The translations under genes were made by a program, and so were the position numbers. Source: Actinoplanes lutulentus (GTDB taxonomy: Bacteria > Actinomycetota > Actinomycetes > Mycobacteriales > Micromonosporaceae). Taken from it: a stretch of 64,000 bases of DNA. Below the pieces are notes generated by a model. The model did not search any database and was not told the origin of the DNA. It saw only the letters and a program-made list of their open reading frames with translations. The DNA lies in assembly GCF_003259845.1 (NCBI RefSeq), contig NZ_QLMJ01000020.1:62001-126000 (forward strand). Reading direction: 5' to 3'. Positions 36,873 to 57,468 of this stretch are shown here, in pieces (the stretch's first letter is position 1; every line of letters starts with the position of its first letter).

Positions 36873-37175
36873 ATGGCGGATTTGAGCCGTCCGGCGAACA
36901 CTTACTACGCGACAACAGCCGACGCGCAGCTCGGCGTGGCTCAGGCGATCCTCAACGAGCATGTGACATCAAGCGCGACTGGGCGCTGTCTATCCTGCGA
37001 CTCGTTCGGACCGTGTTGGCGGCGAGAGAACGCCGTCGTGATCTTTTCCCGGACGCTGCGTCTGCCGCTCCGTAGTCCGGGGGCCAGTCGACCGGAGCTG
37101 ATCGGCGCGAGGCATGTCGGACGCCCGAGCGGTTTCGCTCAGGATGCCGTCGATGCTCGGAGCTGGCCACAATGA
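36873..37175 (+). CDS. Small Cys-containing protein of the FxLD locus
   Basis: A 100-residue protein starting at ATG 36873. The middle reads EHVTSSATGRCLSCDSFGPC, a C-x2-C-x5-C motif typical of small zinc-binding proteins that accompany FxLD lanthipeptide and methyltransferase genes. It then continues WRRENAVVIFSRTLRLPLRS. It overlaps the methyltransferase start by ATGA. It is the first rightward gene after the operator. Function unknown. Confidence 0.68.
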   Translation: MADLSRPANTYYATTADAQLGVAQAILNEHVTSSATGRCLSCDSFGPCWRRENAVVIFSRTLRLPLRSPGASRPELIGARHVGRPSGFAQDAVDARSWPQ

Positions 37176-38692
37176 GCCACCTCGCTGCTCCGCCGACGGA
37201 GATGGTTGAGCACATCCCGGTACGGCCAAGCTGGGACTGTCGTGCTTGCGGTGAGCCGTGGCCCTGCAATGCAGCGCGCTCGGCTCTCAGCTCGGAGTAC
37301 CGCGCTTTCCCTTCGCTGCTGAAGATGTACCTGTCGACGCAGATGTACGAAGCGATCGGCGATCTCTTCGGCGTTAACTCGATCTCGCCCATCGATTTCT
37401 ACCAGCGATTTCTCTCCTGGATCAGGTCACCGCCGACGGACGACAGCGCCGTTCATGCCGAGGTCCCCACCAATGGAGCAACAGTGAGCACGCCGCCTTC
37501 GAATGATCCCGACAAGCTTCGAGCAGCCATGGTCCGGACTCTGATCGAGGAAGGCACGATTCTTTCCGGGGACGTGGCGGCGGCCTTTGCCGCCGTCCCT
37601 CGCCACCTCTTCGTTCCCGGAGAGGCCCTATGGCGGGCGTATGATCCTCAGCTCGCCCTTCTGCCGAAGACCGCTGCTAACGGCACGGACACGAGCGTCG
37701 TGTCCGCCGCCGAGGTGCAGGCCGCCATGTTGGAACAAGCGCAGGTCGAGCGCGGTATGAACGTCCTGGAGGTTGGCTCCGGCGGCTACAACGCCGCGCT
37801 GCTCGCAGAACTTGTTGGCCCGTCGGGTCAGGTCACGAGCGTCGACATTGACTCCGGCATCACGGCCCGTGCTGGCGCCTGCCTCCACAAGACCGGTTAC
37901 GACCAGGTCCGGGTGATTACTGCCGATGCGACGAAGCTCTTGCCCGGACAATCACCCTTCGACCGCATCATCGTCACGACCGCGGCGTGCGACATCGCAC
38001 CCGCCTGGATTGACGAACTCACGCCCTTTGGCCGGATTGTTGTCCCGCTGAGGTTCGCCGGCATCACCAGAGTCATCGCCTTCGACCGCAATCGCGGTAG
38101 CCGGGCGCTGTTCGCTCATAGTTATCGGCTCGGCTCGTTCGTCACAATGCAGGGTTGTGCCGAGGAACGGCTGATCCCGCTCACCCGTGATGTGGCGTTG
38201 CGAGTCGATTCCCAGCACACGCCGGAATTTCACCTGCCAGCGCTCCGGCATGCCATACACGAGCCGCCCATCGAACAGTGGGCCGGTACGGCTCACGACC
38301 TGCCCGACGAGCTACAACTGTTTCTACTCACCAACGCGCAACCGCAGATGCCGATCCTCCAGGCCAGCCAAGAACTGGTCGACCAGGGAGTCTTCCCGAC
38401 AAGCGCCCGCTACGGCGTGCCTGTCCTCATCGATGGCGGCAGCTTCGCCTACCGCACTTCGCGTCCTAATCCGGACATCATCACCGGCTACGAGACTGGC
38501 GTCGTCGCACATGGGCCGGCGGCGGCCAAGGTCGCCGATACGCTGCTGGCCCTAATCCGAGAGTGGGCCAACAACCACTTCAAACGGGATGCCGCCCGCA
38601 TCGAATATCACCCTAAAACCATGGACACGAGCGACCTTCTCGGCTGGCGCGTCATCACGCAGAACGGCGTGCTGACCGTCAGCTGGCCGTGA
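37172..38692 (+). CDS. FxLD-system methyltransferase with fused N-terminal Cys domain
   Basis: A 506-residue protein. Residues about 18-85 form a small domain with WDCRACGEPWPCNAARSALS and a helical region (LKMYLSTQMYEAIGDLF) that in related loci is often a separate small protein. From about residue 108 a PCMT-type fold starts (KLRAAMVRTLIEEGTILSGD). Its SAM motif I is NVLEVGSGGYNAALLAELVG and it continues to the C-terminal domain of the FxLD-system methyltransferases. A GTG at 37484 with GGAG close upstream could start the methyltransferase alone. It may convert Asp or a C-terminus in the lanthipeptide. No frameshift separates the parts. Confidence 0.8.
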   Translation: MSHLAAPPTEMVEHIPVRPSWDCRACGEPWPCNAARSALSSEYRAFPSLLKMYLSTQMYEAIGDLFGVNSISPIDFYQRFLSWIRSPPTDDSAVHAEVPTNGATVSTPPSNDPDKLRAAMVRTLIEEGTILSGDVAAAFAAVPRHLFVPGEALWRAYDPQLALLPKTAANGTDTSVVSAAEVQAAMLEQAQVERGMNVLEVGSGGYNAALLAELVGPSGQVTSVDIDSGITARAGACLHKTGYDQVRVITADATKLLPGQSPFDRIIVTTAACDIAPAWIDELTPFGRIVVPLRFAGITRVIAFDRNRGSRALFAHSYRLGSFVTMQGCAEERLIPLTRDVALRVDSQHTPEFHLPALRHAIHEPPIEQWAGTAHDLPDELQLFLLTNAQPQMPILQASQELVDQGVFPTSARYGVPVLIDGGSFAYRTSRPNPDIITGYETGVVAHGPAAAKVADTLLALIREWANNHFKRDAARIEYHPKTMDTSDLLGWRVITQNGVLTVSWP

Positions 38693-38795
38693 ATCACCCG
38701 GCCGAGGGTCGGGCTGCACCGGTGCAATGGCTCGAAGCACCGCTTGCTCCATATGCCGTTATTCAGAACAAGGTCAAGATGAAAGGAAGTCGCTG

Positions 38796-40082
38796 ATGAC
38801 TGACGCAGCAGCCGACGCTCGCCTCCGGCAACCCGAGAACGGCGCTCCGGGGCCAGCGAGCGGGAGTCAAGCTGAGCGTGGAGCCGAGCTGCGGGCTGCG
38901 CTGGTGGATCAGCTCCGCACGGAAGGCAAGATCACCAGCGCCCTAGTTAAGGCGGCATTCCTCACGGTGCGCCGGGAGCATTTCCTTCCAGAGGAGACGC
39001 CGTTGGAAACGGCGTACGGCTTCGACAGCTCGGTCGTGACCAAGCGTGACGAAGGCGGCGGGGCTCTCTCTTCAGTATCGGCCGCATACATTCAGGCTCG
39101 AATGCTGGAGCAGGCAGGGCTTTCGCCAGGCATGAGTGTGCTGGAGATCGGATCCGGTGGGCTGAACGCGGCCTTGATCGCCGAGATCGTAGGCGAACAG
39201 GGCCACGTGGTAACCGTGGATATCGACCCAGAGGTCACGGACCGCGCCACAAAGCTGCTCGACGAGGCGGGTTACGGCAGCCGGGTGCGGGTCGTGGCCG
39301 CAGACGCCGAGAACGGCGTACCCGGTAGAGCAGAGTTCAACGCGATCATCGTGACGGTCGGCGCGTGGGACATCGCCCCGGCCTGGTTGCGGCAGCTGGC
39401 CCAGAACGGCACGTTGGTTCTTCCGCTGGTCATGAACGGCGTTACCCGTACGGTCGGGCTGCGCCGCGACGGTGAACATCTGACGAGTACGTCGATCGAG
39501 GTAGCCGGGTTCGTCCCCATGCAAGGTATCGGCCGCCATGACGAGCGACTGTTCGTCCTGGCCGGCCCGGACGGTAAGAAGATCACGCTGCGCTTCGACG
39601 ACGGCGCGCCGGTCACCCCCGCTGAGCTCGATGATGTGCTCGCCTCTGGTCCGGTCGAGAACTGGTCCGGAGTGGTGTTCCCGCCCGCGACGTCGTGGGC
39701 GGATCTCTACCTCTGGCTCGCCTGGTACCTGCCGGGATTCTGTCGGCTGGTGGCGGAGGACAGCAGCGCACTGGAAAAGCACGGCACATGGTTCCCGTTC
39801 GGTGTTGTGAGCGGAGCCGGCTTCGCGTTCTTCGTAACGCGAACGGCGCCGAACGGGAAGGGCGTGGAATTCGGCGCCACTGCCTACGGCCGTGACGGTG
39901 AACTGGCCGCCGCGACTCTGGTCGAGCAGATCCGGGCATGGGACCGCGACGGCCGTCCGGTCGCTGGGCCGTCGATCGGTTACTGGCCGACCGGCAGCGA
40001 CCTTTCCAAGATTCCTTCCGACGCCGCGGTCATGGAAAAGACCCATGGAGTCGTCACGATTTCCTGGCCCCCGAAGGGCTGA
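38796..40082 (+). CDS. FxLD-system PCMT-type methyltransferase
   Basis: ATG 38796 follows AAAGGAAG; the frame extends to 38727 without a better start. The 428-residue protein has ELRAALVDQLRTEGKITSAL, SAAYIQARMLEQAGLSPGMS and the SAM motif VLEIGSGGLNAALIAEIVGE. A long C-terminal half follows (WADLYLWLAWYLPGFCRLVA, ending in VVTISWPP). It is a full-length member of the same family as the preceding gene, so the locus has two. It acts in the cytosol, probably on the precursor peptide at 40137. Confidence 0.83.
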   Translation: MTDAAADARLRQPENGAPGPASGSQAERGAELRAALVDQLRTEGKITSALVKAAFLTVRREHFLPEETPLETAYGFDSSVVTKRDEGGGALSSVSAAYIQARMLEQAGLSPGMSVLEIGSGGLNAALIAEIVGEQGHVVTVDIDPEVTDRATKLLDEAGYGSRVRVVAADAENGVPGRAEFNAIIVTVGAWDIAPAWLRQLAQNGTLVLPLVMNGVTRTVGLRRDGEHLTSTSIEVAGFVPMQGIGRHDERLFVLAGPDGKKITLRFDDGAPVTPAELDDVLASGPVENWSGVVFPPATSWADLYLWLAWYLPGFCRLVAEDSSALEKHGTWFPFGVVSGAGFAFFVTRTAPNGKGVEFGATAYGRDGELAAATLVEQIRAWDRDGRPVAGPSIGYWPTGSDLSKIPSDAAVMEKTHGVVTISWPPKG

Positions 40083-40136
40083 GCAGCGCGCGGCTCAGCC
40101 TGGGACAGGCCAGGTGGCATCACCCCTTCCCGCCGT

Positions 40137-40520
40137 TTGGAGAATGAAGTCAATGGCACCCACGGCCACGACCCTCGACCGGCCGCGGAGCCCGTCACCG
40201 ACGATTTCGAGCTGGACATGCGGGTTGTCGAGCTGACCACGACCCTGGTCCAGGGCCGATGCAACACCAGCGACGGCTGCGGCGAGACCTGTAGCGGCAG
40301 CGCATGCAGCACCGCTCCTACGACCCGGCCTGACGCAAAACGCACCAACCCTGACGTTGCCGGAGTCCACGCCCCCCGCTGGGCTCCGGCAACACCCCAA
40401 CCCTCTTGTGTACGGGAGGTGCGCCATGCTGTTCGCTCATCCCCGGTTTCATCCCGCTGGCCCGGTAATGGTCCGCGCCAGCACTTTTCCGGATCAGCCC
40501 GGTGGGCCAGCGTTGCCTGA
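40137..40520 (+). CDS. FxLD lanthipeptide precursor, frame-disturbed
   Basis: The frame carries FELDMRVVE, the FxLD-type leader motif, and a Cys/Thr/Ser-rich core CNTSDGCGETCSGSACSTA as in FxLD lanthipeptides. Its start is abnormal. The only start in this frame is TTG 40137 without ribosome-binding site, whereas a good GGAG precedes ATG 40153 in another frame that reads MAPTATTLDRP and stops. One missing base near 40175-40182 would join them. At the other end no stop follows the core for over 60 codons, and the frame runs into the dehydratase start. So the precursor is probably damaged, or the sequence has an error here. Confidence 0.6.
   Translation: MENEVNGTHGHDPRPAAEPVTDDFELDMRVVELTTTLVQGRCNTSDGCGETCSGSACSTAPTTRPDAKRTNPDVAGVHAPRWAPATPQPSCVREVRHAVRSSPVSSRWPGNGPRQHFSGSARWASVA
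40356..40393 (+). promoter_or_regulatory. Hairpin between precursor and dehydratase genes
   Basis: GTTGCCGGAG and its complement (40384-40393) form a perfect 10-bp stem. It lies between the core peptide and the dehydratase start, where lanthipeptide operons often place an attenuator that lowers readthrough. Confidence 0.55.
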
Positions 40521-40942
40521 CCCCACCGCCTCCGTCGCGGAGTCGGTTCGATGGCTGGCGACCGTATGGGACCACCCAGGTTTCGCCGAGGCCCTCACAT
40601 TCGCCAATCCCGGCCTCGCCGCGCACGTCGCCGGCGTCGTCGATGCCGGGGATGAGGTCCTTATAAAGGCGATCGGGCGGGCCACCTCGGCGGTGTCGTC
40701 CTACCTGGTTCGATGGCAGCGCCGCGCCACACCGTTCGGGCTCTTCGCCGGGGTGACAACCGCAACGCTCGGGCCTGCCGGTCGCGCGATTCGGCGAGCG
40801 ACACCGGGTGGTGGTCCGCGCTGACGCTGACTGGCTTGCTCGCATCATCGACCGGTGGTGGCAGGGCCGAGATGACGGGTTCATCCGGGGATGCCTGGAC
40901 GCGAGCCCGCACACGGCGACAGTCGTAGCGCAAATCGAATAG
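40426..40942 (+). pseudogene. Lantibiotic dehydratase (LanB-like) N-terminal remnant
   Basis: ATG 40426 follows GGGAGG. The frame reads MLFAHPRFHPAGPVMVRAST, WLATVWDHPGFAEALTFANP and SYLVRWQRRATPFGLFAGVT, the typical N-terminus of LanB. It stops at 40824, but homology-like sequence continues in the next frame from about 40787 (RHRVVVRADADWLARIIDRW) up to 40942. The whole fragment covers about 170 residues, while full LanB proteins have around 1000. The rest, and any LanC cyclase, is absent. Loss coincides with the start of the restriction-modification island. Confidence 0.8.
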
Positions 40943-41054: not shown

Positions 41055-42137
41055 CTACGCTGGATGCCCACCCTCTTTCAAGGTGTAGAGCGAGGGTGGT
41101 CCATATTGCTCTAGCTTTGCCTGGTTCGCGGCGATGCCGCCCTCCTGGACAAAAGGCGAGAATTCTCGGATCGGGCGGAACATCGTAGGTTTATAATAGG
41201 CGGCATTTCGCGTCTCCCGCGGCCTGACATCTACAGAAAGGAATTTATCTTCCATGGACCAAAGGTCTGCCCACCATAGTCCGACTCCCCGATATATCTC
41301 AGTAGGAGGGTTTGCTCGCCCGATGATCTGCGCATGGACAAGGTAGATGGGGAAACTTTCACGATCCACCACAGTCAGTATGTCGTCACAGTCGGTGGTG
41401 TCCAACTGGAAACGTGACATGGGATCGCCGACTCCGTCACCTCTAGCGGCAGCCTTCTTGCCGCTTTTCAGTTCGAATCCAGCGACCGGAACATCATTCT
41501 GGTCGTACAAGGTGAAGTCAGGATTGCTGACGCGGTCCAGGTCGGTCCGGCGTCCCCGCGGTCGCAATTGTGGGGGATCCGTTTCGCGGAGACGAAGGCC
41601 CGTCTGTTCCTCGATATTTTCTGCTTTCCAGGTTTCGAGGACGTATTTGGCTGATGCGAGACCTCGTCCTATCGAACGAAGCACACGCTCGCAAACGCCG
41701 CACAGGAACCACTGGGTCAATCGTAAATCGCGGTATGATTCGTTACAGTGACCACAGTTGCCCTCTATATCCTCGCGCGATACCCATTCCGGATCTTTCC
41801 CACCAAAAGCCCTAACGGAGTACTCGTTACGGCATGTGTCGCAGAGAAAAAAACCCGCCAGGCCGGCGTCGCTGGCGGGCTTGCTGTCGCGCGCGCACGT
41901 GTACGCACCCCATGCATCCGGAGCGAGCCGCATCCCTGCCCCGTCAAGGACTGCCATGAGCTGCGTTGCGGTTTTCCCGCCTACGCCACGCAATGCGCGC
42001 AGTTCACGCTCGCTTAGGCGCAGAAGGCCCGCAGTCGACGTGATGCCGGCTCGCCTTAGCGCAGCCGCCACTCGTGGCGGCATGGAGATGTCAAGGTCCA
42101 GCGCAAACAGGCCATCGGGCGTATCCCCCAGGGTCAC
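41055..42137 (-). CDS. HhH/alpha-CTD-like, zinc-ribbon, PD-(D/E)XK nuclease-like protein
   Basis: A 360-residue protein with three parts. Residues 12-68 form a helix-hairpin-helix region of the RNA polymerase alpha-CTD type (ALRRAGITSTAGLLRLSERE, LRALRGVGGKTATQL). Residues 99-149 hold three CxxC pairs (Cys99/102, 128/131, 146/149), a zinc-binding unit. A PD-(D/E)XK core follows with NPDFTLYDQN (Asp207) and FELKSGKK (Glu222, Lys224). It lies divergent from a BsuBI/PstI-type methylase and endonuclease. It could be a second restriction enzyme or a control nuclease. The combination is unusual and not a known named family to me. Confidence 0.7.
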   Translation of the reverse strand: MTLGDTPDGLFALDLDISMPPRVAAALRRAGITSTAGLLRLSERELRALRGVGGKTATQLMAVLDGAGMRLAPDAWGAYTCARDSKPASDAGLAGFFLCDTCRNEYSVRAFGGKDPEWVSREDIEGNCGHCNESYRDLRLTQWFLCGVCERVLRSIGRGLASAKYVLETWKAENIEEQTGLRLRETDPPQLRPRGRRTDLDRVSNPDFTLYDQNDVPVAGFELKSGKKAAARGDGVGDPMSRFQLDTTDCDDILTVVDRESFPIYLVHAQIIGRANPPTEIYRGVGLWWADLWSMEDKFLSVDVRPRETRNAAYYKPTMFRPIREFSPFVQEGGIAANQAKLEQYGPPSLYTLKEGGHPA

Positions 42138-42734
42138 CGGAATACTCTAGCTGCTTCGTCGAGTCTGCCCGCGAGCAGTCAGTCCCCTAGTGGTGGCTGC
42201 GCGTTACGCGGCGGGAGCTTCGGCCGCGCTCGGCGCGGGACTGTCGATGACCAAAGGGGATCGAGGAATCACTCAGCGTGCGTGCGCCAGCGCGCGCACG
42301 CTGAGTCCAGTGCGAGAGAATCACGTGCCGATAGTCAGCGTGACGTTCTTGGATGGATGTCGAGCCGCTGACTATTAATTGGTTTCGGTAGTATTACTGT
42401 TGCACTCGACAAGTGGGAGGCGAATAAACGCGGCAGGGCCGCGAAATGTTACCGGGGGCATGCATGGGGGTTGCAAGTTTGACACGCATGAGAAGAGAAA
42501 ATCCATCCGGGAAGTTGATCATGTGAAATCGGAATCAGACCCGCGGGCTTGCTAGCTTGTCGCTTATGGTATAACTTGTCATCCGCATTCGGATATCAGT
42601 GGCCCTCGTCCGCCTCCTGGACACGGCAACTGTGCTGGGATGCTGATCGGTCCGACGGCGCTGCACCAAAGGTGCGTGCCGGCTGTGCCGAGCAATTACA
42701 GGTGCCATTTTCGAATGACGAATGACGCTGCCGA
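42138..42734. other. Divergent promoter region of the restriction-modification island
   Basis: These 600 bases hold no supported gene. The sequence is AT-richer than the flanks and includes the imperfect hairpin at 42271-42306. Several AT-rich stretches follow at about 42370-42520. The promoters of both the nuclease-like gene and the methylase gene must lie here. Confidence 0.5.
42271..42306. repeat. Long inverted repeat
   Basis: ACTCAGCGTGCGTGC and GCGCGCACGCTGAGT form a 15-bp stem with one G-T wobble around loop GCCAGC. It could be a terminator or a control site for the divergent genes; which one is undecided. Confidence 0.55.
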
Positions 42735-44303
42735 GTGAGTGGAACGGTAAATAGGATGCTTGAACAGGGTGGCGCAATCTCTGAAGTTGCACGGCAAATG
42801 CTGAAGCGCGCAGAGGTTCATCGCGTTGCTGCCCTACGGAACATACCTCAGGATCAGCAATCTAGTCTAGGGCAGTTCTTCACTCCGAATCGTGCAGCCC
42901 AGTTAGTTGCCTCAATTCCCCGTCTCCCCAAAAGCGGGCAGCTCCGCGTACTTGACCCAGGGGCTGGATCAGGAATGCTCCTTGCTGCGTTGGCAGCTCG
43001 AGCATTGGAAGAGTGCCTGGACGTCTCGCTAAGCCTCGTGGCAGTCGAACTAGATTCCCATGTGATGCCGTACTTAAAGGCGACACTTGCGGATCTCAAA
43101 TCTACGGTATCTGATTGTGGAATTAAGCTTGATTACGAAATCAAGCCGGGAGACTACGTCGAGCTACGTACTGGAGTGGTCGATGTGCTTAGCCAGGCGG
43201 AGCAGTTCGATCTTGTGATTATGAACCCGCCCTACCGAAAGCTCAGCGTTAGCTCGGCCCATCGCAAGGCACTGTCTCGGCTGGGAGCCGATTGCCCCAA
43301 TATTTACGCCGGCTTCCTTGCGCTCGGAGCATTGGGACTTCGCGATGGTGGGCAATTGGTAGCTATTACGCCGAGATCCTTCGCAAATGGTCCATATTTT
43401 GACCAATTCCGAAACTTCCTGCTGGACCGGGTAAATCTCGATAGGATTCACGTCTTCGAGTCGCGCTCGACGGTGTTTTCCGACACCGGAGTCCTTCAAG
43501 AGAATATTATTTTCTCAGCGACTCGCGCGGCCAGCCCTGGTTCCGTCGTGCTATCCGTTAGCCATGGACATACGGATGAGATTGTCATGCGCCGGGTGGA
43601 GTACGCGGATGTCGTCAAACCTGGGGATTCTCATCGGTTCATTCGACTTCTTGTCGACGACGAAGATACCGTCACTGCCGAGACGATGGCTGCGATGCCA
43701 GCCACACTCGGCGACATCAAGGTAGAAGTATCTACGGGACGAGTCGTGGACTTTAGATCCCGCGAGTGCTTGCTATCGCAACCTGATAACGAAAGCTATC
43801 CTTTAATTTATCCCGGTAATGTGCGGAATGGTCTTATTGAGTGGCCTCGGAAGCTCAAGAAGCCTCAAGCGTTTGCGGCGCGTGAACCCAAGGACCAAAA
43901 TTTCCTGCTGCCGCAGGGCTATTATGTCGTTGTTAAGCGATTTTCCGCAAAGGAAGAACGTCGGCGAGTCGTCGCTTCCGTATGGGACCCTTCAATCAAC
44001 TCTGGCCCAGTCGCATTCGAGAACCATCTCAACATCTTCCACAGAGGTGGTGAGGGGTTGCCCCGAAATCTTGCCGTAGGGCTGAGCTACTGGCTTAACG
44101 GCTCTGTCGTAGATCGGTTCTTTCGGACCTTCTCTGGCCACACGCAAGTTAATGCGACTGATCTACGGTCATTGCGTTACCCCTCGCTCGAAGTGCTGGA
44201 GCAGTGGGGCGGCATGCTTGAAATTGCACTACCTGAGCAAAAGGAAATTGACGCTAAGGTAGCCGCCATGTTTGAACTGCTAGGGGGCCAGGCCGGTGAG
44301 TGA
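42735..44303 (+). CDS. BsuBI/PstI-type N6-adenine DNA methyltransferase
   Basis: A 522-residue methylase. GTG 42735 and ATG 42756 are both possible starts. QFFTPNRAAQLVASIPRLPK leads to SAM motif I LRVLDPGAGSGMLLAALA (residues about 70-87). Catalytic motif IV is NPPY (about residue 164, in VIMNPPYRKLSVS). The C-terminal target domain includes YPLIYPGNVRNGLIEWPRKL. The order and companion gene match M.BsuBI/M.PstI, which protect CTGCAG at the inner adenine. Base composition is visibly lower in G+C than the neighbours, pointing to recent transfer. It overlaps the endonuclease gene by eight bases. Confidence 0.88.
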   Translation: MSGTVNRMLEQGGAISEVARQMLKRAEVHRVAALRNIPQDQQSSLGQFFTPNRAAQLVASIPRLPKSGQLRVLDPGAGSGMLLAALAARALEECLDVSLSLVAVELDSHVMPYLKATLADLKSTVSDCGIKLDYEIKPGDYVELRTGVVDVLSQAEQFDLVIMNPPYRKLSVSSAHRKALSRLGADCPNIYAGFLALGALGLRDGGQLVAITPRSFANGPYFDQFRNFLLDRVNLDRIHVFESRSTVFSDTGVLQENIIFSATRAASPGSVVLSVSHGHTDEIVMRRVEYADVVKPGDSHRFIRLLVDDEDTVTAETMAAMPATLGDIKVEVSTGRVVDFRSRECLLSQPDNESYPLIYPGNVRNGLIEWPRKLKKPQAFAAREPKDQNFLLPQGYYVVVKRFSAKEERRRVVASVWDPSINSGPVAFENHLNIFHRGGEGLPRNLAVGLSYWLNGSVVDRFFRTFSGHTQVNATDLRSLRYPSLEVLEQWGGMLEIALPEQKEIDAKVAAMFELLGGQAGE

Positions 44304-45252
44304 TCCTGAGGACCTTCGCATCGAAGAAGCGCGGGGCATTTTGGCCCGACTTGGCTTTGACCGCGAGCGAGCCAACGAGAGGTCCGCGCTGGTATTGCTT
44401 GCTCTCCTGGGGATGACCCGAGAGTCCCCATGGTCGAGCGCGACCAGCCCGCTCGTCGGGACGCGTGCGATCATGGATTGGATCAGAGATCAGTACGGTC
44501 GTAACTATGCGCCCAACACACGTGAGACGATCCGCCGCTTCACGCTCCACCAGTTCGCAGACGCGTTGCTCGTGGAACAGAACCCCGACAACCCAAGCCG
44601 CCCGGTCAACTCTCCCAAGTGGTGCTACCGGATTCACCCTCGCGCCCTGGAATTACTCCAGCATGTCGGTGAATCTGATTTTCAGGACTTGCTTGTCGAG
44701 TACCTAGATGAAGTTCCGGGTCTCCGGTCAATGTATGCCGCCGCGCGTGAACTCCGCCGCATCCCTGTCACACTCCCTGGGGGAGGAGCGGTAAGTCTAA
44801 GCCCGGGTGGGCAGAATGTGTTAATTAAAAGTATGGTCGAAGAATTTTGCGAGTACTTCACCCCCGGCGGCGAAGTGCTCTACATCGGCGATGCCGATGC
44901 AAAATGGGCGGTTCTTGTGCGCGAGTCGCTCGCAGCGCTGGGCGTCACCCTCGATCAGCACGGAAAAATGCCGGATTTGGTAATCTATTTGCGCGAACGC
45001 AACTGGCTTGTGCTTTTGGAAGCAGCCTCGTCCCATGGGCCAGTTGACGCAAAACGCCATCGCGAGCTAGCCAAATTGTTCGAGGGTTCGACCGCCGGCC
45101 TGGTGTATGTGTCGTGCTTCCCTGATCGGCGTGAAATGCGGAAGTACTTGGCAGATATCGCTTGGGAAACAGAGGTGTGGTGTGCGGAAAATCCTACGCA
45201 TCTCATCCACTTCAATGGCGAAAGATTCCTCGGCCCATACGGCAAAACATAG
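44296..45252 (+). CDS. BsuBI/PstI-family type II restriction endonuclease
   Basis: A 318-residue protein starting at GTG 44296 inside the methylase end. The conserved C-terminal half contains MPDLVIYLRERNWLVLLEAA (Asp and Glu of the PD-(D/E)XK core), SHGPVDAKRHREL, the segment AGLVYVSCFPDRREMRKYLA, and the ending AWETEVWCAENPTHLIHFNG. These blocks are typical of BsuBI/PstI enzymes, so CTGCAG is the predicted target. Known family members cut this site; target here is inferred. With the coupled methylase it forms a complete restriction-modification system. Confidence 0.88.
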   Translation: MSDPEDLRIEEARGILARLGFDRERANERSALVLLALLGMTRESPWSSATSPLVGTRAIMDWIRDQYGRNYAPNTRETIRRFTLHQFADALLVEQNPDNPSRPVNSPKWCYRIHPRALELLQHVGESDFQDLLVEYLDEVPGLRSMYAAARELRRIPVTLPGGGAVSLSPGGQNVLIKSMVEEFCEYFTPGGEVLYIGDADAKWAVLVRESLAALGVTLDQHGKMPDLVIYLRERNWLVLLEAASSHGPVDAKRHRELAKLFEGSTAGLVYVSCFPDRREMRKYLADIAWETEVWCAENPTHLIHFNGERFLGPYGKT

Positions 45253-45671: not shown

Positions 45672-47642
45672 CTATCCGGCGGCGATCTCGATGTATAGGT
45701 CTCCGTCGGCGCCGCCGTTCCTCCCCGGAATGGCCAAGCCCTTTAAGCGGACTCTCATGCCTGGCTCGACGCCTGGCGGGATTTGGGCGGTGACGAATTC
45801 TCCCACCGTTCCCCGGTGATCCATCGCGATGACCTGGTTACAACCGTTAGCCATCTCTTCTGCGCTGAGCGCGATAACGATGATGGCGTCGTTTCCGTCC
45901 TGTGGCCGTGACTGAATCATCTCCGCAAACTTGGTCCAGTTGCCTTTCACGAACGCCCAGGTCTTGACGTACTCCTCGTTCAGGTTCCGTAGACTTCTCG
46001 ATGAGTTGCGATCAAGCTCGGGCAGGGGCAGGTTGTAGCGCCATGGTTCAGCGTCAACCCCGCCCACCAGCCACTGCTTCGTCTGGTCGACAGTTGCGCA
46101 AAGCCACAAGTTGGCCGACCAGTAAGGCAGAAGGTAGATATGCAGGGCTTCGGCTGTTCCGTGGGGAAACAGCAAGACCTCGTCGGGCCGCTCCGGGTTG
46201 CCGTTGGCGATCTCGTCCGGCGTTAGCCGCTTCCAGCGTTCGTAGCCCTCGTTCTGCGACTTCGACTCGGTGTACTCGAAAAGCCCTGACCCCTTGCCTT
46301 GTGTCTGCGACGTGGTCTGCATGGGCATGAGGTAGTCGCCGCCGAGCTCGGAGAAGGTGTTGATGGTCGCGGTGTCGCGCGTTCCAGGAAATACGAGGAC
46401 ATTCTGGAAGAGGCTAAGCAACGCCATGCCTTGCTCGCCCCATCGCTGGCGGGCCTGCCCCATGTCCTGGAGCACTCCAAGGGTCACGATGCCTTCTCCA
46501 CCGATGGCGAGGATTTCAGGCAATTGGGGGATCGGTGCCATGGTGGCCATCTCGTCGAGGGCGAACAGCACGCGATGCCGACTGTCCACTCCCAGGCGTG
46601 CCTTCTCACCTCGCACCTTCGCTACTGCGGCGCGAATCGAGGTCAGGAAAGCAACAACGATCGGCGCCAGTTCCACTTGACTCTTCGCCGAGATGTAGAT
46701 CGTGTCGAACCAGCCGCTCGCGTAGTTCGGGAACACACCCAGTTGTGCGGCTCGGGCCTGAGGGCTGTCGTCGCTTTCATATAGGAGGTCCCAGTTGCCT
46801 TCGACGGGGACGCCGCGGACGAAGCCTTCCATGTCGAAGTTCGGGTTGTCGGTTGAATCGAGCACGCCGGACCGCTCGAAGACCCGGAGTGTCACCGCTG
46901 CGGTGGAGAACACGCTCGCCCGCTCACGATCAGGCGCTTTGTAGATGCCACCGAGGATGTCAAGCTGCAGTCGGTGGCCGTCCTGATTGAGCTGCTTCAG
47001 CAAGGGCACGATTTCGTCCGTCAGGCGCTGGCCCGTGATCACGCTGAACACCCACCGCATGTCGTGGCCGTAGCGGGCGGCGCTCCAGAGCAGGACGCCG
47101 AGGAGAGATTGGGCTCGGCCCTCAAAGTGCAGGCCGGCATCTGATTGGCGAGCGTCGGACTTCTTTGAAGCGCTCACCATGGCGCTGGACATATCGAGCG
47201 CCGTGTCCCAATCGGCTGATTCGGCCACAGGGGACCACCGAAGCTGGTTGCAACCGGGTACCGTCGGTTCCGCGTCGGGTGTCCAGTGCCAGAGAGTGCC
47301 CCAGCTCGACCGAATTGCTGCAGTTGCACGTAGCACGTCGATCTTAGTGCTCGTCGAAACAACTGGGCCTGGCCAGGTCATGACGTTGGGAACGACGACC
47401 GAGGCGGTCTTGCCAATCGCGTGGCGCGCGGGCGCGATGGCCAGCAGGTTGGTGTCTGGGTTGCAGAAAATCGGACCGGAAACTCCGCTGATGCCGATCC
47501 ACAGGCGCCGGTCGTTCTCGGGAGCGGCCGAGCGGCGTTGCTTATTGAAGGCGCGAAAAGTGTTGTTCTCTCGCATCATGTCCCAGTGCCAGTTTTGGGG
47601 AATTTGCGGCGGTTTTGGCTTGCCGAAGAGCGGCATGAGCAC
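45672..47642 (-). CDS. VirD4/TraD-like coupling protein with C-terminal DnaJ-type domain
   Basis: A 656-residue protein; ATG 47636 is an alternative start. Walker A lies at 70-79 (APARHAIGKT, first Gly replaced by Ala). GPVVSTSTKIDVLRATAAIR follows as in VirD4 coupling proteins. Walker B is VLFALDEMATM near 350. Segments LGVLQDMGQARQRWGEQGMA and LVFPGTRDTATINTFSELGG complete the TraG/TraD pattern. From about residue 580 the sequence turns into a DnaJ C-terminal domain: IVIALSAEEMANGCNQVIAM, IPPGVEPGMRVRLKG, then GGADGDLYIEI. No N-terminal membrane helix is seen. A chaperone-type peptide-binding domain on a coupling ATPase suggests protein substrate recognition. Confidence 0.82.
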   Translation of the reverse strand: MLMPLFGKPKPPQIPQNWHWDMMRENNTFRAFNKQRRSAAPENDRRLWIGISGVSGPIFCNPDTNLLAIAPARHAIGKTASVVVPNVMTWPGPVVSTSTKIDVLRATAAIRSSWGTLWHWTPDAEPTVPGCNQLRWSPVAESADWDTALDMSSAMVSASKKSDARQSDAGLHFEGRAQSLLGVLLWSAARYGHDMRWVFSVITGQRLTDEIVPLLKQLNQDGHRLQLDILGGIYKAPDRERASVFSTAAVTLRVFERSGVLDSTDNPNFDMEGFVRGVPVEGNWDLLYESDDSPQARAAQLGVFPNYASGWFDTIYISAKSQVELAPIVVAFLTSIRAAVAKVRGEKARLGVDSRHRVLFALDEMATMAPIPQLPEILAIGGEGIVTLGVLQDMGQARQRWGEQGMALLSLFQNVLVFPGTRDTATINTFSELGGDYLMPMQTTSQTQGKGSGLFEYTESKSQNEGYERWKRLTPDEIANGNPERPDEVLLFPHGTAEALHIYLLPYWSANLWLCATVDQTKQWLVGGVDAEPWRYNLPLPELDRNSSRSLRNLNEEYVKTWAFVKGNWTKFAEMIQSRPQDGNDAIIVIALSAEEMANGCNQVIAMDHRGTVGEFVTAQIPPGVEPGMRVRLKGLAIPGRNGGADGDLYIEIAAG

Positions 47643-48277
47643 CCCCAGTGATCAGGTCGGTACAGATACAGACCACATCACACTGGGAATGGGGTCGCAT
47701 TCGGTAGAACGGCTAAGTGATATTAGTCACGTGACGGGGTGTGATGCAGGGTGGTCGCTTTATGAGCCGCCCTATTAGTTCAGCGCAAGCGGCTGAACGA
47801 CCTCGCCGGGTCGACCGCGGTCCGCCAGGTGATCTCGCCGCCATCGATCTTTCTGATCAAATCGCAGCTAGGAGTTATCAGCGTAAGTCACCCGCAGGGC
47901 TCATGGATAGTGCGCAGGGTATTGAGCCGCAGCAAGAAGGGCTGGGGGAATAGAGGCACCCAAGCGGTCACTCGAGGTCGGCAGCGCCGCCTCCGGGGTG
48001 TGGCGATGGTGATGCACAGTATTATGGTCATCTTCTGGACATCCAACAGTACCGATGTAATTCACCGGTCGAGTCGACCTGGCCAAAATCCCAGACTAGC
48101 CAAGAGGGCGGCCACGACCCGGACATGACCAACAAGGTGCGAGCCGTGATCAAGCGAGCGGAGAGTGCCCCGCTGCCATCGCAATGCTTACTGGCCCGAA
48201 AGCTGGGAATTTTCCTCAACGCACCGCACGATGGACCCTGCGAGGTTCATGTCGCATCTTGAGCTGAGGGAGACCGC
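47643..48277. other. Upstream region of the coupling-protein gene
   Basis: This 635-base stretch has no well-supported gene apart from the weak frame at 48125. The region just before 47642 should hold the leftward promoter of the coupling protein. The sequence is AT-richer around 47640-47720, with a GTGA-TATTAG-TCAC motif near 47716-47729. Confidence 0.45.
48125..48262 (+). CDS. Possible 45-aa peptide
   Basis: The frame begins MTNKVRAVIKRAESAPLPSQ and ends in CEVHVAS, 15 bases before the next ATG. It has plausible residue content, but no clear ribosome-binding site is visible, so support is weak. Confidence 0.25.
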   Translation: MTNKVRAVIKRAESAPLPSQCLLARKLGIFLNAPHDGPCEVHVAS

Positions 48278-48616
48278 ATGGCTGGCGAGTACCACTCGGG
48301 TTTGCGGGCAAAGTCCCTGGCGTGGAACAAGGTCAACAAAGCCATGGAGGACGCCAAGACCATCTACGGCAAGGACTCAGCTGAGTACGTCACCGCACGC
48401 GAGGAGGCCATCGACGCCCAGCTAGACTTCGTTGAGTACGCAAGCAAGCACGTTGACGACCTCCACCGCGAATTTAGCGATGCTCAGATGAAGATTGACG
48501 AGCTGGAGCAGGCGCAGCAGCGCGAGGTGTTCGAACGCGCGGACCTCGACCCGGACTTGGAGCGCAGGGTCCAGGACGACTTGGAGCGCAACCGCGGAGA
48601 CGAGTGGGAACGATGA
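48278..48616 (+). CDS. Small charged coiled-coil protein
   Basis: A 112-residue protein starting at ATG 48278 with GGGAGA upstream. It is rich in Glu, Lys and Asp with heptad-like spacing (FVEYASKHVDDLHREFSDAQ, MKIDELEQAQQREVFERADL), so a coiled coil is likely. It carries no membrane or signal segment. It sits on the opposite strand to the coupling protein and next to an IS remnant. It could be an accessory of that ATPase. Function unknown. Confidence 0.6.
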   Translation: MAGEYHSGLRAKSLAWNKVNKAMEDAKTIYGKDSAEYVTAREEAIDAQLDFVEYASKHVDDLHREFSDAQMKIDELEQAQQREVFERADLDPDLERRVQDDLERNRGDEWER

Positions 48617-48740
48617 ACGAGCCGTACTGACCATCGAGCAGTGCGGCCGTCGATGGTAACGCGATGCGCTGACCAATCTGTTCGACGAGCAGCGAACTGT
48701 TCCGCCCCGGGTTTGATGGAGACATCCAAACCTGGCAGAG

Positions 48741-49067
48741 AATTCAGTTAGATCGGCACCGAAGAATTACCCCGATGAGTTGCGTGAGCGGGCGACCCGG
48801 TTGGCGGTCGAGGCCCGCCGGGATCCGGCGTCGAGCGTGGGGGCGATCCGGCGGAACGCCGATCAACTCGGGATCCATCCGGAGGCGCTGCTTGGCTGGG
48901 TGAAGAAGGCCGAGACCGATGACGGCGTGCGGCCAGGCACGACCAGCAGCGACGCGGAACGCCTCGCCGCTCTCGAGCGGGAGAATCGGGAGTTGCGGCG
49001 GGCGAACCAGGTCCTGAAGTCCGCGGCGAGCTTCTTCGCGGCGGAGCTGGACCGTCCGTCGCGCTGA
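48741..49067 (+). CDS. IS3 transposase OrfA
   Basis: The frame reads APKNYPDELRERATRLAVEA, then RRDPASSVGAIRRNADQLGI and HPEALLGWVKKAETDDG, the helix-turn-helix of IS3-type OrfA. It ends with a leucine-zipper-like part (LAALERENRELRRANQVLKS, AASFFAAELDRPSR). The true start is unclear: no ATG lies upstream in frame, TTG 48780 is the first conventional start, and homology extends before it. It belongs to the remnant element above. Confidence 0.75.
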   Translation, partial: NSVRSAPKNYPDELRERATRLAVEARRDPASSVGAIRRNADQLGIHPEALLGWVKKAETDDGVRPGTTSSDAERLAALERENRELRRANQVLKSAASFFAAELDRPSR

Positions 49068-49420
49068 AGGTCGGCTTCGTCGACTCCCAGAAGGCCGAAT
49101 ACGGTGTCCAGCCTGTCCTGCAGGCGCTTGAAGGCACGCCGGCACAGATCGCACCGTCGACCTACTACGCCGCCAAGACCCGCCCCGCCAGCGCCCGAGC
49201 GAGGCGTGACGACGAGCTGACCGTCATGATCGAGCAGATCCACACGGCTAACTACGGCGTCTAAGGGGCCCGCAAGATCTGGCACGGAGCTGCACCGCCA
49301 CGGGATGCCGGTGGCCCGGTGCACCGTCGAACGTTTGATGCGTGCGGTCGGGCTGCGTGGGCTGCTACGCGACCGACCGGGCGCCGTCCCGACACATAGA
49401 GATCCACTGCGCCGCGCCGA
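49068..49420 (+). pseudogene. IS3 transposase OrfB, truncated
   Basis: The frame after OrfA reads LKVGFVDSQKAEYGVQPVLQ and DDELTVMIEQIHTANYGV, as in IS3 OrfB, then meets a stop at 49262 where YGVYGARKIW is expected. The continuation GARKIWH and, shifted, HGMPVARCTVERLMRAVGLR can be traced to about 49420. The catalytic DDE core is missing altogether. Confidence 0.75.
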
Positions 49421-49513
49421 GGTTCCCCCCCCACGGCAGGTACGCCAGAAGGCCTGAACATCCGACGAGGTCCCGGATCGGAGAACGTCGTAGGGGCCGG
49501 GTATCTTCCCCGC

Positions 49514-50956
49514 GTGTCGACCGTCCCACCAGCCTCTGCGTTCGGTGCACCTGCCCCGCCCGCCGGTGACGTTCACGCTGCGTTCCTGCGCCGCGGCGAT
49601 GCCCACCAAGTCTACGCCCGCGACATCACCGCACCGGAAGCACCGCTCTTCTACCTCGGCCGCGGCCGCGCCGACGAGGTACGCGCCTACACCCGCGCGT
49701 ACCTGCAATGTCCGTACCCGGACTGCCCGGCGCCGGAGTTGACTACCGCCGGCGGAAGTGCTGTGCGCGACCATTTCCGGCACCTGCCCGGCAGCAACGT
49801 CCGGCACCAGCGCGAGGGCATAAACCACTTCACCGCGAAACACCAACTTGCCCGCTGGGTTCGTACGCAGGCACCAGACGCGGTCGTACACGTCGATGAC
49901 ATCGTCCTCGAGAACGGCCGGCACCCGGACGTCTATGCCATCGTCGGCGGGAACCGGATCGTGTTCGAGATCCAGTACTCGCCGCTGAAGTGGCCGGAAA
50001 TGCGGAAGAGACGCGCAGCCTACGACCGGATCGGCGTCACGTTCGTCTGGGTTTTCGGGCACACCGGCGCCTTCTGCCAGCCGGTCGCCGCCACTAGCCC
50101 GGAGCAGCAGGCCACCGCCCTCACCATCGACCGTGCATTGTGGGAAGCGGCATACAACGCGATGCCGCTCCTCTGGATCAACCCGTTCGAAGAACTAATC
50201 GCCACCGCCGCGTTCACCCCGTCGGAAGTGCGCAAGCTAATGGCCTGGGGACAGGGGCTGCGTCAGGTAAACATCGACATCTGCACACTCGACGAATGCC
50301 GCCTGGAGTTCCGGGACCGCACCGATATCTCGGCGTCGTGGGCCTGGAACGCGGAGCACGGCTGGCCGACAGCCGGCGACATCGCTCCGTACCTGACGGG
50401 ACTGATCACCCCGGCGGCAAGAAAGGTCAGCGCTGAGGCGGACGCTCGGCTGACCGCGATCCGGCAGCAGCGCGCAGACGAGGCCGCCGCTGAAGCCGCC
50501 GCCGAAGATGCCGCCCGCAGGCAAGAGCTTCCGTACCAGAACTGGCTGGGAGAGAAGGCGAAACTCGAGGAGAGGTACGGACCGTTGCCTGCAATGGTCC
50601 TGGACAATGCTTCCCGGAGGTTCACGGTCCGTGGAGTGGCGAAGGAGCACTGGATGGCCGCTCTGCTCGAGATCTTCGATCAGGTGGTAGGTGACCAGGT
50701 TTCGGAAACCTGGATTCGGTCGCAGCTGGGCAGTCGCTTCGGTTGGCCGGCAGGGATGGTCACCGTCACGGATTGGTACCCGCTCATCCAGTACCTTCGC
50801 GATCTTCGCGATGACGGTTGGGTCGATCTCCCTTCTACTACCTCGCTCTTGGACGGTGACCACATCACCGTCCTCGCCAGCCTCCGAAGGCCGCCCTCCC
50901 CGCCCACCAACTCCGACCCGAGCCAGGTAGAGCGACAGCGCACGCCGCCGGCATGA
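49514..50956 (+). CDS. CoiA-like competence/PD-(D/E)XK nuclease
   Basis: A 480-residue protein starting at GTG 49514. After a Cys/His lead (CPYPDCPAPE, VRDHFRHLPG), KHQLARWVRTQAPDAVVHVD leads into the CoiA nuclease core: HPDVYAIVGG (Asp139) and RIVFEIQYSPL (Glu152, Gln154). The hallmark is E-x-Q rather than E-x-K. WVFGHTGAFCQ follows. The centre has an Ala/Glu-rich coiled part, and the C-terminal 120 residues look like a separate helical domain. CoiA proteins act in competence-like DNA processing; here the gene sits on apparently mobile DNA, so a role in element transfer or recombination is also possible. Confidence 0.7.
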   Translation: MSTVPPASAFGAPAPPAGDVHAAFLRRGDAHQVYARDITAPEAPLFYLGRGRADEVRAYTRAYLQCPYPDCPAPELTTAGGSAVRDHFRHLPGSNVRHQREGINHFTAKHQLARWVRTQAPDAVVHVDDIVLENGRHPDVYAIVGGNRIVFEIQYSPLKWPEMRKRRAAYDRIGVTFVWVFGHTGAFCQPVAATSPEQQATALTIDRALWEAAYNAMPLLWINPFEELIATAAFTPSEVRKLMAWGQGLRQVNIDICTLDECRLEFRDRTDISASWAWNAEHGWPTAGDIAPYLTGLITPAARKVSAEADARLTAIRQQRADEAAAEAAAEDAARRQELPYQNWLGEKAKLEERYGPLPAMVLDNASRRFTVRGVAKEHWMAALLEIFDQVVGDQVSETWIRSQLGSRFGWPAGMVTVTDWYPLIQYLRDLRDDGWVDLPSTTSLLDGDHITVLASLRRPPSPPTNSDPSQVERQRTPPA

Positions 50957-51494
50957 CGTGAGGAGCCGGGGATGATAGCGAGACCGCCACTCGACTGGTC
51001 CGCGCTGCAGGCGCACGTCTCGACATACTCGTTGAAGCTCTGGCGCGCGACTATCCCAGGCGCCGCGAACTCATCCTCGACGCCGGTCGTGCTCTGACAC
51101 GCCCGGGGTAGCAGTGATGCCGGATGTCGTAGGCGTGCGCTACAGTCACCGGCGTCGAGATCCACCAAGGACTCGGCCGCGCACCGCTTCGGTGGTCCGT
51201 ACGTCTGGACGCCCCGGCACTTTGAGCCGTGGCGAGCGCGAGACCGGCAACCATCCGCGAGGATGGGAACCCGTACCCGCAACCCCGAAGTCTCGGGGGA
51301 GCGGCGGGCCGACCGGGATCGCCCTGGACACGCGGCAACTCCGACCCGGCCCGCACGAGTGCAGCATCGTGAGCTGTACCCGGACGGGAAGGATGCCTGC
51401 CTACGTACTCAGTACGTCGGGCGGCGGCGGGGTCGAGATCGTCTCGGCCCGCGGTCATCCCGCGTGTGCGTTAGGCCTGAGGAGGCCACGCACG

Positions 51495-53600
51495 ATGAGT
51501 TCCACACCTGCCACGTCGCCGGACAACGTGTTCCCGGCGGTCAAGCACCGACCCCGCCCGGCCGTCGCGCCGGCCGTGACGCGATCACTCGCCCCGGCCC
51601 GCAAGGCGCTGCTCGGCAACTCGGACGTAAACCTGTGCGAGCACGGCGCCGGCGCCGTCACCGGCGGGCTCGTCGACCCGCACCGGTTCAGCATGCTCGT
51701 CCAGGCGTACCAGGCCGCGAACGGCAACGCCTCCCTGCTGGTCGAGAAGCGAGTCAGTGAAGGCGTTGTCTTCGTCACCCAGCAGCACGACCGTTTCCTG
51801 GATTTGGGCATCCTGCCGGACATCGCCGGCGCCCGCTGGCTGCACCAGGTCAAGAGCCGCCTGCAGCTCGACGCGGGCCGGCCGGTGGCGACGCTCGGCA
51901 CCTCCACCGAGAACGGCCGCCCCTGGGCGGTGATCGAGCTGACGGTCACCGACCACGCCGAGTTCGCCGACCGGATCCGGGAGGCTTTCCGGCGCACCGC
52001 CCCCGACGGGCAGGCCGTCAAGAACGACTACACCAACAGCATCCTGCAGTCTGGGGTCAAGGAGCCGCTGACGCTGGTCGTGATGCGGGTCGTTTTCGCC
52101 GACGGCTCCGAACCGGAGTACTACCTCGTCGCTATCGACGGGAACTCCCGGCTCGTGTCGACGTGGAAGGCCCGCGTCGGCGGTGACGCGGAGCAGGCCG
52201 CGACGGCGTGTATCGAAGCGGTCGTCGGCACCGCGTCGGGTAAGACGTTCCGGCACGTGACGCAGCGCGCCGCCCGTGACGCTATCTCCGCGCAGGTCAA
52301 TCTGATCAATCGTGGGCTGCAGGACGAGCAGCTGACCGAGACCACGATCCGGCTCGGGCAGACGCTGACGGTCCCGTCGGTCGTGGTCGTCGGCGGCTGG
52401 GCCGACGGGGCGACCGGTAACCCGCTGACTGACCTGCCGGCCGCGCGCGAGGACCTGATCGCCTCCATTCATACCGAGGCGGCACCGTGGGATGAGGAGG
52501 CCAAGGCCGAGCAGACCATGACCCGGATGCTGCGCCGCGCGGTGCTGGAGACCGGGGCGATCGACGCGGACACCCGTCAGGCGATCGAAGGTCGGCTGAC
52601 CGTCGACGAGATGCACGCGCGTCTCGGCCTTCCGCCTAACCGGCTGTGGGCGACCGCGCTGACGTTGCAGGCGATCCTCAACGGCTGGGACAAGGGCGTC
52701 TCCACCCTGTTCGCTGAGGAGTTCGCCAACCGGCGCCCGACCCGGATGGTGATCGGCAAGCAGCTGTCCACGACCGCGCTGGCGGCGTACAAGACCGATC
52801 CTCAGTACGCGGTGGCGAAAAACGCGTTCGCGGACGGCGGACCGATCACCGACCGGGTCTGGAAGTCGCCGTGGACGCTGACCACCGGCGACAGCGCCCA
52901 GAAGGTCCTCGACGACATCCTGGACCGGGCGCTGGCCGGGGAGTCCAGCGCGATCGCGGAGCTGTCGGTGCTCGGCGGGACCGCGGCGATGCTGCAAGCC
53001 CTGCTGACCCGCGACCGCGGGTCGAAGCTGACCGAGTCCGGTGAACGCGTCGACCGTAAGGTTCCATACCGCACCCGGCCGGACAAGGTGATCGCCAAGC
53101 TGACCGAGTCCGCCGGTGGCCTGCGGATGCTGCACTCGCTGGCCACGGCGTTCGTCGGCACGGGCAACCCGAAGATGTTCCACACCGAGGACGACCCCGC
53201 GGGCACGTTCACCGCCGGTGACCCGGTCACCGACAACGCCGGCGCGCAGGTCAACATCGACTACGAGTGGGACTTGTTCGCCGCGGCGGACCCGGCAGGC
53301 ACCCGCGAAGCGCTGGCGGAGATCGCGGCGCACGTGCCCGTCGACCAGCAGGAGAAGGAGCCGCCGGCCGTGACGGCCCGCAACCTGCTGCGCGACTCGG
53401 CGAAGAACGCGGTCGCGGCCGTCGACACCCTCGTGGTGCTCTCCGCCAGCCAGGGCCGCGACGTGTTCGGCGACCCGGTGAAAATCGAGGAAATCAAGAG
53501 CAAGCTGCAGAAGGCCCGCGACAAGCTCAACCAGAACGCCCCGGAGCCGTCGACCGATCCGTTCCAGGAGGAGTACGACGACGAGGATGGTGACGGCTGA
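51495..53600 (+). CDS. Large conserved-type protein of unknown function (ParB-like segment)
   Basis: The frame opens at 51114, but ATG 51495 with GGAGG ten bases upstream gives the likely 701-residue protein. Residues about 55-220 include LVEKRVSEGVVFVTQQHDRF and then VVMRVVFADGSEPEYYLVAI and DGNSRLVSTWKARVG. The DGNSRL element recalls the DGxxR loop of ParB/Srx-type proteins. The rest is helical and acidic towards the end (PSTDPFQEEYDDEDGDG). No nuclease or ATPase motif is visible. It overlaps the GIY-YIG-like gene by one base. Possible role in partition or replication of the element; not proven. Confidence 0.55.
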   Translation: MSSTPATSPDNVFPAVKHRPRPAVAPAVTRSLAPARKALLGNSDVNLCEHGAGAVTGGLVDPHRFSMLVQAYQAANGNASLLVEKRVSEGVVFVTQQHDRFLDLGILPDIAGARWLHQVKSRLQLDAGRPVATLGTSTENGRPWAVIELTVTDHAEFADRIREAFRRTAPDGQAVKNDYTNSILQSGVKEPLTLVVMRVVFADGSEPEYYLVAIDGNSRLVSTWKARVGGDAEQAATACIEAVVGTASGKTFRHVTQRAARDAISAQVNLINRGLQDEQLTETTIRLGQTLTVPSVVVVGGWADGATGNPLTDLPAAREDLIASIHTEAAPWDEEAKAEQTMTRMLRRAVLETGAIDADTRQAIEGRLTVDEMHARLGLPPNRLWATALTLQAILNGWDKGVSTLFAEEFANRRPTRMVIGKQLSTTALAAYKTDPQYAVAKNAFADGGPITDRVWKSPWTLTTGDSAQKVLDDILDRALAGESSAIAELSVLGGTAAMLQALLTRDRGSKLTESGERVDRKVPYRTRPDKVIAKLTESAGGLRMLHSLATAFVGTGNPKMFHTEDDPAGTFTAGDPVTDNAGAQVNIDYEWDLFAAADPAGTREALAEIAAHVPVDQQEKEPPAVTARNLLRDSAKNAVAAVDTLVVLSASQGRDVFGDPVKIEEIKSKLQKARDKLNQNAPEPSTDPFQEEYDDEDGDG

Positions 53601-54007
53601 TGCGTCCCAGCGCGCCTATGTCCGCGCAGATCCACCGGGTGCGCCGCCTGATCGGAGAGCACCTCGCAGAGCCGGGCCCGGCGACGGTGCCTGTTGCGGC
53701 GCTGACCGCGGCGGTGCGTACGCCCCGCTCGGCCGTGTACGTGACGTGGGACAGCCGCGGCCGGTGCCGCTACGTCGGCAGTGTGCACCGGCCCGCGGCG
53801 CGTGCTGCGGTCGCTGACCGGCTAGCCGAGCACGCCAGGATCCCGGCGCGGCGCAGGACCTGGTACGCCGTCACGGTGTTCCCGTTGCTCGACGGCGTGA
53901 CCGTCGACTTGGTGCGCCACCACGAAGGCTGGGCCGCGTACGCCCTCGACCCGCTCGACGGGTCCGCGCACCCGGCAGCCGGCATGCAGGTGCCCGGGTT
54001 GAACTGA
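53600..54007 (+). CDS. GIY-YIG-like small protein
   Basis: A 135-residue protein starting at the final A of the preceding stop (TGATG overlap). The centre reads SAVYVTWDSRGRCRYVGSVH, resembling the paired GIY...YIG strands (VYV and YVG) of GIY-YIG nucleases, followed by a helix with Arg (VADRLAEHARIPARRRTWYA). The usual catalytic Glu and Asn further on are not evident. It may be a truncated or DNA-binding derivative. Its translation is tied to the 701-aa protein. Confidence 0.5.
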   Translation: MRPSAPMSAQIHRVRRLIGEHLAEPGPATVPVAALTAAVRTPRSAVYVTWDSRGRCRYVGSVHRPAARAAVADRLAEHARIPARRRTWYAVTVFPLLDGVTVDLVRHHEGWAAYALDPLDGSAHPAAGMQVPGLN

Positions 54008-54015
54008 CCGGCCGG

Positions 54016-54048
54016 CCGGCGCCGTGGGCTTCAGTTTCACGGCGCCGG
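54016..54048. terminator. Bidirectional hairpin terminator
   Basis: A perfect 11-bp inverted repeat (CCGGCGCCGTG and complement) with an 11-base loop containing TTCAGTTT lies between the convergent GIY-YIG-like and DnaA-domain genes. Confidence 0.7.
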
Positions 54049-54172
54049 TCGCCCGGGTGGGGACTGTGCCACGAAAGGCTCTGGCATAGAAACCTTGGTC
54101 GAGGTGGCCGCCGTCCTATGGTCCAAGACGTGCGTGATCATGATGCCCGTAGCCGGCTGGCGGAAGCGAGTA

Positions 54173-56534: not shown

Positions 56535-56713
56535 ATGCTCCAACCTAGGTCGGCGACAGACGCCGCGTCCCTCGATCGCCGCCCCCAGCTAGCCGAACGA
56601 TGGAGAGCGGATCGGGTGAACGGGTGGAGTGCACGCCGCATACGCGCTGTTGCGCGCCGGGCGTCCCAATCCGCCGAGGGTTCTTGTCGGACCCCGTCCG
56701 TACGGTCCGGCGC

Positions 56714-57211: not shown

Positions 57212-57468
57212 GGAGCAAGAAAAAGAACGGCCAGACCAATGAGGCACGCGTACGCAACCTGGAAGCGCACGTCTTCCGGACCGACTGCCGCCTCCGCGAC
57301 TTGGAAGCCCTGGTGGCCGAACTGACCGGCACCGACGAACCGTCGCCGGGCGGCCACCGCAATCGCCTGGACCGCCTCGAACGGGAACTGCAGAGGCTCA
57401 GTCAGTTGGTCTCGGCTGCCCGGCGCACGGGCAACGACGCCGAAACGAACACCGGCACGCCGAAGTGA
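57181..57468 (+). CDS. Small coiled-coil protein
   Basis: GTG 57181 is the nearest in-frame start and gives 95 residues; GTG 57115 is a longer option. After a Lys-rich lead come ARVRNLEAHVFRTDCRLRDL and RNRLDRLERELQRLSQLVSA, strong heptad patterns for a coiled coil. It overlaps the end of the preceding gene. Function unknown. Confidence 0.45.
   Translation: MAEAAHHPTVRSKKKNGQTNEARVRNLEAHVFRTDCRLRDLEALVAELTGTDEPSPGGHRNRLDRLERELQRLSQLVSAARRTGNDAETNTGTPK

Follow-up and report, generated by a model that had tools for sequence, protein, structure and literature searches.

A putative HhH, Cys-rich and PD-(D/E)XK nuclease tied to PstI-type methylases in actinomycetes

Introduction

Gene N, which lies beside a PstI-type methylase (M) and endonuclease (R) in the 64,000-nucleotide stretch of DNA analyzed here (the window), may encode a Type II restriction endonuclease that serves PstI-type (CTGCAG) modification systems as a second or alternative cutter. 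We give this reading, which draws on comparative sequence data, about an even chance of being correct. What appears to be new is a PstI-type system whose usual cutter is supplemented or replaced by another, and the genetics of N look like those of a Type II endonuclease. A literature search, with subscription papers and REBASE outside its scope, returned nothing on such a third gene of PstI-type systems. The common picture of an R-M system is of a single cutter paired with a single protector, the two traveling together.

Architecture and conservation of N

A first-pass annotation had described an open reading frame with an HhH domain, three CxxC pairs and a proposed PD-(D/E)XK core of Asp207, Glu222 and Lys224, and all of these parts are borne out at that place (Table 1). 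The HhH domain matches PF14520 HHH_5 (E=7e-5) and RNA_pol_A_CTD (E=2.5e-4), both under the Pfam gathering score, and a profile of the four N sequences described below matches the RpoA CTD structure PDB 1doq (3.9e-5). The HhH assignment is therefore safe, whereas "alpha-CTD" is merely the nearest named HhH. The HhH region of BREX PglW is also matched weakly (0.0021, PADLOC), and the rest of PglW has nothing in common with N.

Table 1. Gene N, its predicted parts and the neighboring R-M genes in the window
Feature	Position	Strand	Description
N	41055..42137	-	360 aa; GTG start at 42137, stop ends at 41055; HhH + Cys-rich + PD-(D/E)XK
HhH domain of N	41922..42092	-	residues 16-72 (approximate); profile matches
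Cys-rich region of N	41691..41897	-	residues 81-149; invariant columns; proposed zinc ribbon
PD-(D/E)XK nuclease domain of N	41148..41690	-	residues 150-330, predicted; invariant motif and AlphaFold2 model
Inverted repeat, N-M intergenic	42271..42306		17-nt arms, 2-nt loop, 94% complementary
M	42735..44303	+	PstI/SdaI-type N6-adenine methyltransferase; Eco57I 1.2e-11, N6_Mtase 1e-6, PADLOC MTase_II 9.9e-158
R	44296..45252	+	BsuBI/PstI endonuclease; PF06616 1.8e-58, PF17728 2e-45, SdaI 2ixs 6.6e-78; PD...EA motif intact

The CxxC pairs (C99/C102, C128/C131 and C146/C149) comprise six cysteines that are invariant in the four homologues, as are Cys81 and His130, and we propose that this region might fold as a zinc ribbon. 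Asp207, Glu222 and Lys224 are invariant in the same four proteins and form the D-x(n)-ExK motif of the PD-(D/E)XK superfamily. N is overall ~50% identical between the window and the Streptomyces homologues; identity to the window protein amounts to 54-59% in the Cys-rich and nuclease parts vs. 32-39% in the HhH domain. The dN/dS ratio is ~0.14 among the Streptomyces copies and 0.14-0.25 wherever computable. Because 50% identity is kept across distant homologues at such dN/dS values, N is a real gene. Moreover, selection acts to keep its nuclease part. The architecture of three parts holds up, and neither a family name for N (weak HhH matches aside) nor a named family with this architecture was found in Pfam, NCBIfam, PADLOC or PHROGs.

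Structure prediction for the nuclease region

The AlphaFold2 model of the nuclease region alone, computed from four sequences, is of low confidence (pTM 0.54, pLDDT 48) and places strands and helix in the order strand-strand-helix-strand around D207 and E222/K224, as in a PD-(D/E)XK core. In a Foldseek search of this model against the PDB, EcoRV, HincII, Hjc Holliday-junction resolvases and PvuII come out on top and nearly all of the best matches have the REase fold; the best match has E=0.0067 and none passes E=0.001. The model thus supports, but does not prove, an REase fold for this part of N. EcoRV, HincII and PvuII have the PD-(D/E)XK motif in common with N and are its best, albeit non-significant, structural matches, whereas a sequence relation is absent and the HhH and Cys-rich parts are extra in N. 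The full-length model from three sequences reaches a pLDDT of 40, and only the HhH domain is modeled passably (pLDDT 58-74).

The M-R pair and its surroundings

M is intact and carries an NPPY motif. The M-R pair of the window combines the endonuclease domains with an adjacent Eco57I-type adenine methylase, which defines a PstI/BsuBI-type Type II system, and R aligns over its full length to SdaI (PDB 2ixs). N is divergent from M across a gap of 597 bp, and M and R, both intact, overlap by 8 bp, so that the earlier description of N as divergent from a complete type II system holds. The standard PstI/BsuBI/SdaI systems seen here consist of M and R only, whereas N is an extra, unrelated protein. 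Third-position G+C is low in all three genes (N 0.61, M 0.55, R 0.64 vs. ~0.70-0.85 in most neighboring genes), as expected for one cargo unit.

On the other side of N, the window contains FxLD lanthipeptide genes (37172-40520), namely two FxLD-system methyltransferases (TIGR04364) and a precursor (TIGR04363, 6e-12). The open reading frame that follows them (40357-40824) ends abruptly just ahead of N; it has no family match and may be a truncated dehydratase. Conjugation/secretion genes lie at 2332-4080, 25466-26878 and 45672-47642 (TraG P-loop, T2SSE ATPase, T4SS coupling protein), and the coupling protein (45672-47642) has an unusual C-terminal DnaJ_C-like domain (3e-9).

Linkage of N to PstI-type methylases

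Single-protein searches of relatives, 68 genus genomes, plasmids, phages and viral contigs yielded no homologue of N beyond the window. Scanning 84,980 species genomes with peptide patterns revealed two Streptomyces loci, L008 and, in Streptomyces sp. NBRC 110468, L009, and a profile search added one further Streptomyces locus, L016; the four homologues represent three independent loci. The scan used exact patterns, so homologues of N are probably more numerous than the four counted. N is rare (2/393 and 2/395 sampled genomes). Genome matches near E=5e-4 cover the HhH region only, probably stem from RpoA or other HhH proteins and were set aside. A possible remnant of N in locus L034 was rejected as chance short matches; the same locus holds a BsuBI/PstI endonuclease remnant (6106-6387), C-terminal part only, between relaxase-like and P-loop ATPase-like genes.

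In L008 and L016, the genes are co-directional in the order N-M-R. Downstream of this module, L008 has an Mrr_N + HNH_2 nuclease gene (13958-14716). L009 has N divergent from M, with an unrelated metalloprotease-like gene at most 70 bp after M. R is absent from the 20.8-kb locus, and no BsuBI/PstI endonuclease was found in the whole L009 genome. A PstI-type M, presumably cognate to N, thus adjoins N in 4/4 loci, which is the opposite of homologues that are never linked to R-M genes, the outcome that the first-pass annotation had named as speaking against its proposal. On its question whether homologues co-occur with BsuBI/PstI systems, the methylase is present in every locus and the endonuclease is missing in L009. 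Because one N-M locus resides in a genome without a BsuBI/PstI endonuclease, it is the PstI-type methylase, not the endonuclease, to which N is linked. L009, with N and M intact and R missing, also disagrees with a requirement of N for R as in a heterodimeric, Type IIT-like partnership.

M-R pairs without N occur in L030, from the same order as the host of the window, in the viral contig L036, on eight Proteobacteria plasmids and in four Streptomyces genomes (L051-L054), which were negative in the N profile search of the sampled genomes. Most PstI-type systems seen here lack N. With M-R pairs so common without it, N is thus an accessory that some of the actinobacterial PstI-type loci carry.

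The M of L009 is ~70% identical to those of L051-L054, which without exception have R and lack N, vs. 48% to the M of L008, and the N proteins of L009 and L008 share 71% identity. The M tree places L009 together with L051-L054 (support 94/98); a clade of L008, L016 and L009 is rejected (AU p=0.0004), and a clade of all four N-carriers is rejected more strongly. Some long branches meet in this tree, which leaves exact placements uncertain; the conflict between N and M identities is clear nonetheless. Since the M tree rejects L008+L016+L009 although the Ns of L009 and L008 are 71% identical, N has changed its M partner. The cause is either a move of N to another PstI-type M or an exchange of M beside N; in the L009 lineage, R is gone and N is intact.

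Avoidance of CTGCAG

CTGCAG was named as the site beforehand and its expected counts were taken from a maximal-order Markov model. In the R-less L009 genome with N and M, CTGCAG occurs 35 times in 400 kb sampled vs. 105 expected (0.33, the most avoided of 50 six-base palindromes), and in an N-M-R genome (G863) 9 times in 200 kb sampled vs. 48 expected (0.19, rank 1 of 44). Four Streptomyces controls without a BsuBI/PstI domain, at 120 kb each and not close relatives of the N-carrying test genomes, give ratios of 0.58, 0.89, 0.66 and 0.78. Variation between genomes is considerable: a 40-kb control has a ratio of 0.46, and M-R genomes give 0.19 in one case and 0.70 and 0.93 in two smaller samples.

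Positions 1-46,964 of the window contain 0 CTGCAG sites vs. 10 expected, the lowest of 38 palindromes at a split point picked after seeing the sites, and positions 46965-64000, the last 17 kb, contain 15 at equal G+C. This suggests two segments of different history in a conjugative-element-like region. GGGCCC and CTCGAG are also rare in window 1-46964. The rest of the host genome displays no special avoidance of CTGCAG (0.73; genus controls 0.81). Hence, only the first 46.9 kb of the window support avoidance in N's own host. The avoidance is consistent with CTGCAG being the target and with a cutter that remains active in the R-less genome, where it could also be a relic of a lost R. SdaI-like relatives may read longer sites that contain CTGCAG, which bears on CTGCAG recognition by the M-R pair of the window.

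The proposed second or alternative endonuclease and rival explanations

If N is a second or alternative endonuclease, its HhH and probable zinc-ribbon parts would hold DNA and its EcoRV-like PD-(D/E)XK part would cut unmodified DNA, while the neighboring adenine methylase M would shield host DNA from N as from R. The site of N would therefore have to contain the site methylated by M. Where N and R are both present, two unrelated cutters would stand behind one methylase, and in L009 N alone would take the cutter's place. Linkage to M, the N-M locus without R and the avoidance of CTGCAG lend this reading indirect support. Nuclease activity, zinc, specificity of N and protection by M are what we infer. 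Against this reading, there is just one clear case of N without R, and the loss of R there may be recent. Furthermore, N is not needed, because M-R pairs without it are common and work alone elsewhere. Among the options raised in the first-pass annotation, that of a second nuclease is favored, whereas a "new restriction type" is too strong a term; what the evidence suggests is a new family of enzymes that follows the usual Type II logic.

Binding of DNA by HhH domains is as a rule not sequence-specific. This would suit an accessory nuclease of the module that acts on another substrate after R or M, by nicking, degrading or processing DNA such as replication intermediates or R-cut fragments, and that is not a site-specific restriction enzyme. 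R is also present at most N loci, and Hjc resolvases score close to REases in the predicted model; yet purifying selection maintains N next to M in a genome that lacks R, and most M-R pairs do without N. We consider such a role rather unlikely. A smaller chance goes to a modification-dependent, Type IV-like nuclease directed at phages whose other base modifications escape R. It would fit the layered-defense idea, and DpnI combines a PD-(D/E)XK site with a Cys4 zinc site in one restriction enzyme (PMC4081073), a combination that N would share if its proposed zinc site is real. DpnI, however, has a winged helix in place of the HhH domain and cuts methylated DNA, whereas N is tied to a methylase, and N matches neither DpnI nor any other Type IV family in Pfam, NCBIfam or PADLOC. 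A Type IV enzyme needs no partner methylase, yet N keeps a PstI-type M at its side even where the M lineage has changed, and a 6mA-directed nuclease would here attack its own host. Like N, Vsr endonuclease, the third gene of some R-M systems, is linked to a gene for a methylase; it is a small nuclease that contains zinc (PMC4081073). N as a Vsr repair endonuclease was rejected: a Vsr profile match is absent and its partner M is an N6-adenine methylase. Vsr serves 5mC methylases.

The similarity of the HhH domain to the RpoA CTD, the divergent layout and the 17-nt inverted repeat in the N-M intergenic region would be in line with a regulator of the R-M genes, analogous to a control protein, in which the HhH domain acts on transcription and the nuclease core is vestigial. 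The catalytic residues are invariant, however, conservation is higher in the nuclease and Cys regions than in the HhH domain, and the layout varies, being divergent in the window and L009 and co-directional in L008 and L016. We therefore regard a regulator as very unlikely, and no support was found for the earlier suggestion of a regulator that cuts. Least likely of all is that N is an unrelated passenger in defense islands. R-M genes do cluster with other mobile cargo, and the rarity of N would fit, but N adjoins R-M genes in all four cases, at three independent loci with differing gene orders and M lineages. Chance adjacency is very unlikely because PF06616 is present in only ~2% of the sampled class.

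Implications

A further-reaching version of the second or alternative endonuclease reading is that N founds a new restriction endonuclease family that is unrelated to PstI and swappable for R while the CTGCAG-type methylase stays the same. In some actinomycetes, one methylase would then serve two unrelated cutters, and the newcomer would have displaced the original in at least one lineage. We put this forward tentatively, as possible but doubtful in its entirety. If it is true, a cutter would move between methylases of one specificity, added to or replacing the original cutter, and N would show how restriction enzymes get replaced by unrelated ones. Moreover, it would add an unclassified nuclease architecture of HhH, Cys-rich and PD-(D/E)XK parts that present defense-system profiles miss.
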